Of a stretch of 64,000 nucleotides of DNA, positions 47,245-57,046 are shown piece after piece; positions within the stretch are counted from its first letter, which is position 1, and each line of letters begins with the position of its first letter. The notes under the pieces are model-generated. The model saw nothing but the letters and a program-made list of their open reading frames with translations, was not told the DNA's origin and did not search any database. Origin of the DNA: Actinomycetota bacterium (lineage in GTDB: Bacteria > Actinomycetota > Thermoleophilia > Gaiellales > Gaiellaceae); the NCBI GenBank assembly GCA_020029595.1, contig JAIBJN010000001.1:18472-82471 (forward strand), in the 5' to 3' direction. Both the position numbers and the translations under genes were made by a program.

Positions 47245-48384
47245 ATGACAGCCATGGATACCGTTGTGCTCACGACCATGAGAGTGGTGTGCGGAAAGGA
47301 GGAGCTGGCCGAGAAGCTCCAGGTTGTGGGCCGTGGTGTCTCGACGCGGACCAGCGTCCAGATACTCGCAGGCATCTATCTTCGCGCCGCCGCCGGTCGC
47401 CTGCATCTCAGCGCGACCGATATGGAGATCTCGGTACGCGACTCACTCGAGGCGCAGGTGGAAGAGGAGGGTGCGATCGTCGTGCCCGGACGTCTCCTGG
47501 TCGACATCGTCCGACTCCTTCCGCCCGGTGACGTCACGCTGGAGCATCGGGCTGACGAGGGCGTCATGCGAATGGCGTGCGGCTCAGCCTCCTACCAGCT
47601 GAATACGTACGGTCCCGAGGACTTTCCTCGTCTACCCGAGATCGAGCCGGAGACCGCGTTTACGGTGGAGCGGGATGCGTTTCTCGACACGATCGCTCGT
47701 GTCGGCCGCTCCGCCTCCCGCGACGAGTCGCGCCCCGTGCTGACCGGCATCCTCGTTCGCTTCGAGAGCGACAAGCTCGTCATGGCCGCGACCGACTCGT
47801 ACCGCTTGAGCGTCAAGGAGACGGCGCTCTCGGGCGGCCCGGGCCGCGAGCTCGAAGCGATCGTTCCTGCTCGAGCGCTTCAGGAGCTCGGTCGCATCGG
47901 CCAGGCGGCCGAGAGCGAGACAATCGAGGTCGGCGTCCAGGAGAACCAGATCGTCTTCGGGGTCGACGGTGTCTGGCTGACCGCCCGGCGGATCGACGGG
48001 CAGTTCCCGAACTACAAACAACTCCTTCCCGACCAGTTCGAGGCGGAGGTTCAGCTGCCGCGGGAGGAACTTCTCGATGTCGTCCGCCGCACCGGCCTGC
48101 TCGCTCAGCGGAAGTCACCGCTCCGGCTCCGCTTCGAAGAGGGGGAGCTGACGGTCTCCGCGCAGACGCAGGACGTCGGTGAGGCCCGCGAGTCGCTCCC
48201 GGTCGCCTACAGCGGCGAGCCGATGGAGATCGGCTTCAACGCGGACTTTCTGCGCGACGGCCTCGAGTCGGTGACCGACGAGACCGCCCGCCTCAAGCTC
48301 ATCAGCCCCCTTCGCCCCGGGCTTGTGCACGGCGAAAGCGACGACTTCCTCTACCTGATCATGCCGATCAGGCTGGCCGGCTGA
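47245..48384 (+). CDS. dnaN: DNA polymerase III sliding clamp, beta subunit
   Basis: 379 aa with the three-part clamp repeat: ILAGIYLRAAAGRLHLSATDMEI, RPVLTGILVRFESDKLVMAATDSYRLS and the C-terminal IGFNADFLRDGLESV...YLIMPIRL tail that forms the partner-binding pocket. Start ATG 47245; ATG 47278 (MRVVCGKEEL) is a rival because conservation begins there. The TGA stop forms the CTGA junction with recF. Confidence 0.97.
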   Translation: MTAMDTVVLTTMRVVCGKEELAEKLQVVGRGVSTRTSVQILAGIYLRAAAGRLHLSATDMEISVRDSLEAQVEEEGAIVVPGRLLVDIVRLLPPGDVTLEHRADEGVMRMACGSASYQLNTYGPEDFPRLPEIEPETAFTVERDAFLDTIARVGRSASRDESRPVLTGILVRFESDKLVMAATDSYRLSVKETALSGGPGRELEAIVPARALQELGRIGQAAESETIEVGVQENQIVFGVDGVWLTARRIDGQFPNYKQLLPDQFEAEVQLPREELLDVVRRTGLLAQRKSPLRLRFEEGELTVSAQTQDVGEARESLPVAYSGEPMEIGFNADFLRDGLESVTDETARLKLISPLRPGLVHGESDDFLYLIMPIRLAG

Positions 48385-49463
48385 TCGTCGCGCGGGCCTC
48401 GCTTCGGAGCTTTCGCTCGTACGCCGCTCTCGATCTTGGGCTCGTCCCCGGGCTCGTCCTCGTGGTCGGCCCGAACGGTGTCGGCAAGACGAACCTGCTC
48501 GAGGCGCTGCATGTCGGTGCACAAGGGTTCTCGCCCCGAACCCGAGCTGAGCCACGGCTCGTCCGCTTCGGCGAGCGGGCGGCGCGGGTGCAGTTGGAGG
48601 GAACTGAGAGGGGTTCGCCCGTCGAGACGGAAGTGACGCTCGCGCCGGGTGAGGGCAAGCGGCTCCGCCTGAACGGGGCGGCACTCGGCTCGGCCGAGGA
48701 GCTGCGAAGCCGTCTGGCGGCGCTCGTCTTCGTCCCCGACCGGCTGGCCGTCGTCAAGGGTGGGCCGGTGGTTCGTCGTGCGTACCTCGACCGGATGCTC
48801 GGGCGAGTCTTCCCCTCACAGGCTGCGCTCCCCGCCGAGTACGGACGCGCGCTTGCGCAGCGCGGGGAGGCGCTCCGCCGTGTCCGAGCTGATCTTTCGA
48901 CGCGAGCGGCCGTGGAGCCCTGGACGGAGCGCGTCGCCGAGCTCGGGGCGAGCTTGGATGCCGCCCGCGCCCAGCTCGTCGCGCTTCTGGCACCCGGCTT
49001 CGCCGTCCACGCAGACGCGCTCGGGGTCTCCGCTGCCACCTTTGCCTACGAGGAGCGCGGCCTGCGGCGAGAGGATCTGGAGACGAGGCTCGACCGTGAT
49101 CTCGAGCGTGGGACGACCGGCCTCGGCCCTCATCTCCGCGACGTCGAGGTGCGGGTCGACGATCGTGACCTGCGCGGATTTGGCTCCCAGGGAGAGCAGC
49201 GGACGGCCGTGCTCGCACTGCTCCTCGCCGAAGCCGCCGTGCTCGCCGAGCGCCGCGGAGCCCCGCCGCTCCTCCTCCTGGACGACGTCTTCTCGGAGCT
49301 CGACGCGGGCCGCCGGCGCGCTCTTCTGGAGGCTCTGCCTGCGGGCGGTCAGACCCTCGTCAGCGCGACGAGCGCTGACGCTCTCCCTGCGGACGCCCGG
49401 GAGCCGGCTCTCGTCGTCACGGTCAGGCGAGCAGGCGATGCCAGCGTGGCGGAGGTGGCATGA
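48381..49463 (+). CDS. recF: DNA replication/repair protein RecF, apparent CTG start
   Basis: ABC-type ATPase that loads RecA at gaps. The track begins at GTG 48462, but the conserved N-terminus (VARASLRSFRSYAALDLGL) precedes it. Reading upstream in frame there is no ATG, GTG or TTG; the first fitting codon is CTG at 48381, whose last two bases begin the dnaN TGA (CTGA). From there the protein is 360 aa, the usual RecF length, with Walker A VVGPNGVGKTNLLEAL, signature GFGSQGEQRTAVLAL and Walker B LLLLDDVFSELDAGRR. Alternatives are a truncated GTG start that would lose the first beta strands, or a sequencing error. Confidence 0.92.
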   Translation: MIVARASLRSFRSYAALDLGLVPGLVLVVGPNGVGKTNLLEALHVGAQGFSPRTRAEPRLVRFGERAARVQLEGTERGSPVETEVTLAPGEGKRLRLNGAALGSAEELRSRLAALVFVPDRLAVVKGGPVVRRAYLDRMLGRVFPSQAALPAEYGRALAQRGEALRRVRADLSTRAAVEPWTERVAELGASLDAARAQLVALLAPGFAVHADALGVSAATFAYEERGLRREDLETRLDRDLERGTTGLGPHLRDVEVRVDDRDLRGFGSQGEQRTAVLALLLAEAAVLAERRGAPPLLLLDDVFSELDAGRRRALLEALPAGGQTLVSATSADALPADAREPALVVTVRRAGDASVAEVA

Positions 49464-55273: not shown

Positions 55274-56238
55274 GACTCGCGCAGGACGCCGGCCGCGGAC
55301 TCCGGCGCCATCGTGTTCACGTAGTAGCCCGAGCCGAGCTCGATGCCGGCGAGGACGCCGAAGCGGGGCAGGACCTCGAGGTGCCAGTGTCCGCCGGCGT
55401 GCAGCCAAAGGTTGAGCGGGACGCCGCCTTCGGCGACCCGCAGCCTGCGGACTCCCTCTGCGGCGAGCGCGAGGGTCGCTCCCAGTCGCGGGCTCGCGAA
55501 GGGGTCGCCCTCGCACTCGAGAGGGGCCGCCAGGAGCTCGTACGGCTGGCGGCCTGCGAACGGGCAGAGGAGGAGCACGCCGTCGCGCTCCTCGACGACG
55601 CGGATCCTCTGCTCTCGCTCCTCGGCGAGGACGCGACAGAGGAGGCAGCCGCCGGCGGCCTTTTGCGCCTCGCGCTCCTGGACGACGAGCGGCGGCTCGG
55701 CCTCGAGCCAGACGAGCTGGGAATGGCTGTGTGCGAGACTTGCGCCTCCCCCCGCGCCCTCGTTCACCAGCGCGTGGACATACGGGAACCCGGCCTCGCG
55801 GGCGGCCGCGGCGCGGGCCTGCCAGGCTTCTGCGACGAGCTCGAGCTCGCGCCCGCCCAGGTCGGCGATCGTCCTGACGTGGCGGGGAGTGTGGACGACG
55901 ACCTCCTGGCGCCCGACGGCCGCACGCCGAGCGAAGAGCCCGTCGTCGCGGTCGCCGTCCCGTGGCCAGGGGCCGAAGGCGGGGAACTTGTTCGGCACGA
56001 CCCGGACACGCCAGCCCGGGGTATCGGGAGCGCGCCCGGGCGGGCCGATCGCGTACGTCTCCGGCGGCGTCGCCGCCTCGCGCCCCTCGCAGAAGGGACA
56101 TCCGGCCGGGTTGTCCTGTTCCTCGAGCGTTTCAGCCCTAGGGGCACCGGGCCGCCTGGCCCGCGAGGGCGCGACCACGACCCAGCGGCCCGAGACCGGG
56201 TCATGGCGAAGCTCGGGCGGCGAGTGGCCTTCCGTCAG
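55270..56238 (-). CDS. galT: Galactose-1-phosphate uridylyltransferase, apparent CTG start
   Basis: HIT-superfamily nucleotidyltransferase of the Leloir pathway. Conserved [22 protein letters not shown] at the N-terminus, zinc Cys pair in [25 protein letters not shown] with catalytic His, CLLCRVL and the end motif HWHLEVLPR. No ATG/GTG/TTG precedes ELRHDP in frame; CTG 56238 overlaps the slipin TGA as CTGA and gives 322 aa, a normal size. Starting at the next GTG would remove the conserved head. Other GalT-fold activities (e.g. ADP-glucose type) are possible. Confidence 0.88.
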
Positions 56239-57002
56239 CCGGCGCCCGTTTTGCCTTTGACGAAGGGGCTCAGGAGGTCGATGGGCAGCGGGAGGATCAG
56301 GGTCGACGACCGCTCCGAGCTGATCTCGAGCATCGTCTGGAGGTAGCGGAGCTGGAGCGAGATGGGGTTCTCGGTAAGGACGTCGGCCGCGTCCTTGAGC
56401 CGCTCGGCGGCCTGAAACTCGCCCTCGGCCGCGATCACCTTCGCGCGGCGCTCGCGCTCGGCCTCCGCCTGACGGGCCATCGCCCGCTGCATGCCGGTCG
56501 GGATTTCGACGTCCTTCACCTCGACGATCGAGACCTTGATCCCCCACGGCGAGGTAGCCTCGTCGATGATCTCCTGAAGGATCGCGTTGATCTTGTCGCG
56601 CTCCGAGAGAAGCTCGTCGAGGACATGCTGGCCGAGTACGCTGCGAAGCGTCGTCTGGGAGATCTGCGACGTGGCGACCATGTAGTTCTCGACTTGCACG
56701 ATCGCCCGCTCGGGGTCGATGATCCGGAAGTACGCGACCGCGTTCACCCGGACGGGGACGTTGTCCTTCGTGATCACCTCCTGCGGCGGGATGTTGAGCG
56801 TCACCGTCCGCAGGTCGACCCGCACCATCTTGTCGATGACGGGGATGAGGAGGAAGAGGCCCGGGCCCTTCGGCGGCGAGTGCAGTCGCCCGAGGCGGAA
56901 GATGACGCCCCGCTCGTACTCGCGTGCGACGCGGACGGACGCCGCGAGCAGGAGCACGATGATGATGAGAACGGCGGCGACGGCGATCAGTGCGGGGGTC
57001 AT
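56235..57002 (-). CDS. Slipin / stomatin-like SPFH protein
   Basis: 255 aa: one N-terminal hairpin helix, then the SPFH domain ([50 protein letters not shown]) and a coiled tail ([25 protein letters not shown]). The partner of NfeD, which is just upstream. Start ATG 57002 with a good AAAGGAG ribosome site and TAGGAT (57030-57035) as possible -10, so unlike its neighbours it has a conventional leader. Confidence 0.93.
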
Positions 57003-57046
57003 CAGGCTCCTTTCCGTTCGAGCGCTGGCATCCTATGCGACCCGGC

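Follow-up and report, generated by a model that had tools for sequence, protein, structure and literature searches.

The recF gene in the window, by which we mean the whole 64,000-nucleotide stretch of DNA analysed here, appears to start at CUG, as it seems to do in nearly all members of the same actinobacterial family. In the explanation that we consider fairly likely, this start was gained once and has been kept by selection since a weak start holds RecF low. Comparison between genomes establishes the position of the CTG, its conservation, its restriction to the family and the fact that its C is constrained. Whereas bacterial CUG starts have been treated as rare accidents, a repair gene here appears to keep one family-wide.

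The gene order at this locus is dnaA, dnaN, recF, a short conserved gene, gyrB and gyrA, the names other than dnaA, dnaN and recF being those that we take to apply from reading the sequences. The short gene is putatively DUF721-like, as judged from its position. The features of the dnaN-recF junction are as follows.

47245..48384, plus strand: dnaN, DNA polymerase III beta clamp (TIGR00663, 292 bits, cut-off 137.65; open reading frame list).
48180..48182, plus strand: in-frame stop, 67 codons upstream of the recF CTG (reading of the upstream frame).
48381..48383, plus strand: CTG, proposed recF start, whose C is the wobble base of the last dnaN codon (conservation and wobble test).
48381..48384, plus strand: CTGA, recF start overlapping the dnaN stop (sequence).
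48381..49463, plus strand: recF, 360 amino acids counted from the CTG (TIGR00611; codon 1 placed by alignment in 87 family members).
48414..48416, plus strand: codon of R12, which a start at 48462 would leave out (no variation in an alignment of 27 RecF proteins).
48462..48464, plus strand: GTG, first canonical in-frame start (residue 28), rejected as main start (frame reading, relatives).
48468..48494, plus strand: Walker A, GPNGVGKTN (sequence).

The true start of dnaN may be the ATG at 47278 and not 47245; its 3′ end reads ...CTG GCC GGC TGA, with GGC as last codon and the stop at 48382-48384. RecF matches the NCBIfam profile TIGR00611 over its whole length (252.2 bits against a cut-off of 172; residues 5-329 aligned with profile positions 3-338), and the N-terminal arginine R12, Walker A (G30 to T37) and Walker B (D301-D302) are conserved across 27 RecF proteins. 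From 48381 the recF frame reads CTG ATC GTC GCG CGG GCC TCG CTT CGG AGC TTT CGC TCG TAC, and between the stop at 48180..48182 and this CTG it contains no ATG, GTG or TTG. An earlier note on this DNA had described both the lack of a canonical start before the GTG at 48462 and the overlap of the CTG with the dnaN TGA, and both can be read in the sequence; its figures of 27 residues deleted by a start at 48462 and of 360 amino acids counted from the CTG agree with ours.

For a view across the family, recF loci were fetched from 87 genomes, mostly fragmented, metagenome-type assemblies, and codon 1 was placed by ungapped extension of protein alignments. It proved to be CTG in 79 genomes, GTG in 4, CTT in 2, CTA in 1 and CTC in 1. 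A canonical start was absent from the 40 codons upstream in 75/79 CTG genomes, 12 of which also lack one before Walker A. The choice of third base is telling: among the 41 genomes in which recF does not overlap dnaN, CTG accounts for 34 of the 37 CTN codons at codon 1, as against a CTG share of 33.5% among CTN codons throughout these genes (binomial P about 2e-13, relatedness ignored), while a conserved leucine seven codons downstream, used for comparison, is CTC in 38, CTG in 25 and CTT in 23. That is, G is favoured at the recF start over the third bases of other leucine codons, the exceptions being the CTC of L123, the two CTT and the CTA of L017. Both CTT genomes carry a TTG four codons upstream. 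The CTA genome, which overlaps dnaN and reads CTA-ATC, and the CTC genome do not fit a strict CUG requirement; neither codon is expected to initiate and nothing clearly takes its place, with an error, another start or loss of RecF as the options.

Codon 2 is ATC in 69/87 genomes and elsewhere AGC, GTC, ACC, CTC, GAC and others while the CTG stays. Because codon 2 varies in this way, we rejected a shared DNA motif, CTGATCGTC, as the cause of the conservation. The canonical replacements, all GTG, occupy codon 1 itself. The earlier note had named relatives with ATG or GTG at the same place as evidence against its reading; in the family these come to only 4/87, although sister families do carry them. 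Its main proposal, initiation of recF at CUG, is strongly supported by the alignments, with CTG in 79/87 genomes, conserved residues 3-25 and an invariant R12.

RecF residues 3-25 are almost certainly translated, because in the family alignment their amino acids are kept while synonymous positions are free to vary. Such conservation as protein makes it highly improbable that translation begins at the GTG at 48462 and leaves 27 upstream codons untranslated. This GTG is admittedly the first canonical in-frame start, and GTG is over-represented at valine codon 26 (48456-48458 in the window; 58/87 genomes) compared with codons 28 and 29, an enrichment that we weighed as an alternative start and rejected. 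However, a start at 48462 would also lose R12, which is invariant across RecF, and the 12 genomes mentioned above would have no canonical start to offer before Walker A. Moreover, outgroups with a canonical start at codon 1 also often carry GTG at codon 27.

The earlier note attributed the CUG start to termination-coupled re-initiation at the overlap. A four-base dnaN-recF overlap is present in 44 of the 85 scorable family genomes (43 with CTG, 1 with CTA; 2 of 87 could not be scored), and in the other 41 recF lies 1-187 bases beyond the dnaN stop (median 25), starting with CTG in 34, GTG in 4, CTT in 2 and CTC in 1. Coupling would thus be possible where the genes overlap but is not a general requirement, because 34/79 CTG genomes lack the overlap.

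Some of the separated junctions deserve mention in their own right. At the old overlap site, L152 retains a CTGATC remnant and L163 a CTGATCTCG remnant, and in both a second CTGATC now holds the recF start position, which suggests local duplication upon loss of the overlap. Strong related palindromes, such as GGCGTCGCAACGCGACGCC, lie in the dnaN-recF spacers of L007, L008, L022, L023, L025 and L030 (also L012 and L024); they are found in several genera and perhaps represent an inserted REP-like element, with the exact form GGCGTCGC-NNN-GCGACGCC in three loci only.

The overlap provides a natural test of whether the CTG is maintained, since the first base of the recF start is there the wobble base of the last dnaN codon, which is GGC in 39 genomes and AGC or ACC in 5. 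GGA, GGG and GGT would all keep the glycine of dnaN and give recF an ATG, GTG or TTG, respectively, yet 0/39 genomes use them. The wobble base is C in 44/44 overlapping genomes, with 0 changes on the tree, whereas 30 other four-fold sites in these rows changed a median of 12.5 times and never fewer than 2. In non-overlapping genomes, by contrast, the wobble base of the last dnaN glycine is C in 25, G in 6, A in 3 and T in 3, with 12 changes (Fisher P = 6e-5 for overlapping versus non-overlapping, relatedness ignored; the change counts allow for it). The constraint on C is hence seen only where the base forms part of the recF start. Because the C is invariant in the overlap whereas the wobble varies outside it, the CTG looks actively kept rather than tolerated. 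The C of the overlap could be held for another cause, such as RNA structure or termination context, against which stands the fact that non-overlapping dnaN genes do not hold it.

These data also bear on a neutral CUG, used by ribosomes but present only since the last codon of dnaN prefers GGC and recF tolerates a poor start. GGC is a common glycine codon here and the C does occupy the dnaN wobble position; nevertheless, other conserved glycine wobbles in the same rows change 13-21 times and the recF-start C never, non-overlapping dnaN genes use all four bases, CTG persists in the 34 genomes without overlap, and published switches to CUG are very rare (PMC5622118). We therefore regard neutrality as unlikely. 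Less likely still, and by a good deal, is initiation at the second codon, AUC, for which one can cite the ATC at codon 2 in most of the family, the CTA-ATC of L017 and the ATC that seems to occupy the start in some members of a Chloroflexota family (below); codon 2, however, varies widely where codon 1 remains CTG, and the GTG replacements sit at codon 1.

A DnaN-RecF fusion made by frameshifting from dnaN, or by readthrough, is suggested by the overlapping frames in half of the genomes, but would have to cope with spacers of up to 187 bases and, in several genomes (L015, L019, L153), with in-frame stops 1-4 codons before the CTG; nor was a slippery sequence seen on inspection of the junction, and we consider such a fusion extremely unlikely. 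As for a sequencing or assembly error of an ATG or GTG, the window's assembly is indeed fragmented (2.56 Mb in 140 contigs, 88.5% complete), but the relatives refute this explanation by carrying the same CTG in 79 separate genomes, and its probability is next to nil. A CUG start under selection for low RecF is the reading that we carry forward.

To place the CTG in evolutionary context, a quick RecF tree of 126 rows was built with the first 30 residues left out, and changes were counted by parsimony. The family forms one clade with a support of 100. Over all 126 rows there are 7 switches of start state; the overlap switched 21 times within the family. At the homologous codon, ATG or GTG predominates in the sister families of the order; class-level relatives mostly have GTG or ATG, several reading GTG-ATC-GTC, and two of them (L188 and L200) show a GTGA overlap at the dnaN-recF junction. 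The simplest history is that CTG arose a single time in the family's ancestor and survived repeated losses of the overlap, while a few lineages later reverted to GTG or to a TTG farther upstream.

Is the peculiarity confined to recF? In 20 family genomes, starts were checked with each gene anchored on its own N-terminus. A canonical start was always present near the N-terminus of dnaA, dnaN, the short conserved gene, gyrB, gyrA, rnpA, yidC, parA and parB, as it was for one further conserved gene (56235-57032 in the window), and it was absent for recF in 16/20, jag in 4/19 and rsmG in 1/18, the jag and rsmG cases likely stemming from variable N-termini. We had considered parB as another start-less gene but rejected it, all relatives checked having a TTG (or ATG/GTG) start. 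At the parA-parB junction of the window (41800), parB appears to start at a TTG inside the end of parA, and most relatives read likewise; gene finders may pick another parB start. Shine-Dalgarno pairing has medians of -1.7 to -2.5 kcal/mol for recF, -8.3 for dnaA and -6.1 for dnaN. That IF3 is relaxed, or that start fidelity has been lost in general, is unlikely, because the IF3 C-terminal domain scores above cut-off in the window's genome and most relatives tried, and because the locus's other genes start canonically.

A canonical recF start was likewise missing from two Chloroflexota records of the first scan, and a follow-up sample was taken of 70 recF loci (L235-L304) from the Chloroflexota family of L092. 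At the start position, 21 loci carry CTG, 10 ATC (in one case preceded by an ATG), 8 ACG, 7 GTG, 4 ATG and 1 TTG; most of the remaining loci offer a canonical start a few codons farther upstream, as a rule in the immediately preceding codon. A non-canonical codon with no canonical start within 12 codons upstream is found in 34 loci (17 CTG, 8 ACG, 7 ATC, 1 TCG, 1 GGG). All CTN codons at the start position are CTG (21/21, versus 43% usage), while codon 2 is CTC in 24, CTG in 19 and CTT in 8, and the dnaN start in these loci is GTG in 28/28. These near-cognate starts suggest a second, apparently independent case, which we regard as suggestive and not settled because the ACG excess is weak alone (P 0.02) and ATC, making up 92% of isoleucine codons, is uninformative as a codon choice. 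Whether recF repeatedly evolves CUG, ACG and AUC starts as heritable dampers of RecF, once here and separately in Chloroflexota, strikes us as an even bet. If true, dozens of genera of the actinobacterial family have kept the CUG with hardly a change.

How might such a start work? The CUG would be read by the ordinary initiator tRNA through its second and third positions, presumably with insertion of fMet. Its origin was probably a G to C change in an ancestral GTG-ATC-GTC start overlapping the dnaN stop. In the window, ribosomes ending dnaN probably feed the CUG; in relatives with separated genes, it would work without overlap. Selection would retain the CUG since weak initiation means little RecF. 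From the comparisons we infer that ribosomes use this CUG, that it yields little RecF and that this scarcity explains why it is there. CUG initiation in E. coli is poor, about tenfold below UUG as cited in PMC11983097; E. coli, which normally has about 50 RecF molecules per cell, suffers extreme toxicity when RecF is over-expressed (PMC10287930); and switches of start codons to CUG are few, 2/61,358 for AUG and 1/5,080 for GUG starts across 36 genome triplets (PMC5622118). We favour a CUG start selected for low RecF because of this weakness, this toxicity and this rarity. The reading also fits the finding in E. coli that excess RecF destabilises replisomes. A published survey, as cited in PMC11983097, counted 20 annotated CUG starts in about 85,000 genes. 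Our literature search found no publication joining Gaiellales and start codon. A weak codon is apparently preferred over synonymous routes to a strong start, which makes selection for weak initiation testable at one base. In practical terms, recF is likely mis-annotated as N-terminally short, in the genomes of this family and in the Chloroflexota family, where gene finders allow only ATG, GTG and TTG.

Among known systems, E. coli infC starts with AUU, a conserved near-cognate codon that lowers expression and serves IF3 autoregulation. Both infC and the recF described here are chromosomal and have kept a near-cognate start; unlike the infC product IF3, RecF is not known to play a part in start-codon choice. 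The CTGA of dnaN-recF shares its geometry with the coupled four-base overlaps ATGA, GTGA and TTGA but differs in its CUG codon, which outlasts the overlap. E. coli has the same dnaN-recF gene order, but its recF starts with ATG (PMC10287930), so the scarcity of RecF there is not set by a near-cognate codon. An instructive parallel is the rep gene of RepFIB in F-like plasmids, likewise replication-associated and with a CTG start proposed to limit expression: this CTG is a weak start, its change to CTC abolishes function, and it is argued to have been chosen for low expression (PMC11983097). In a further likeness to recF, rep is commonly mis-annotated at a downstream GTG (PMC11983097). The two differ in that RepFIB rep lies on a plasmid, has a good ribosome-binding site and has had its start proven by experiment (PMC11983097), whereas recF here is chromosomal, has little Shine-Dalgarno pairing, shows its CTG family-wide and has this start supported by comparative evidence.
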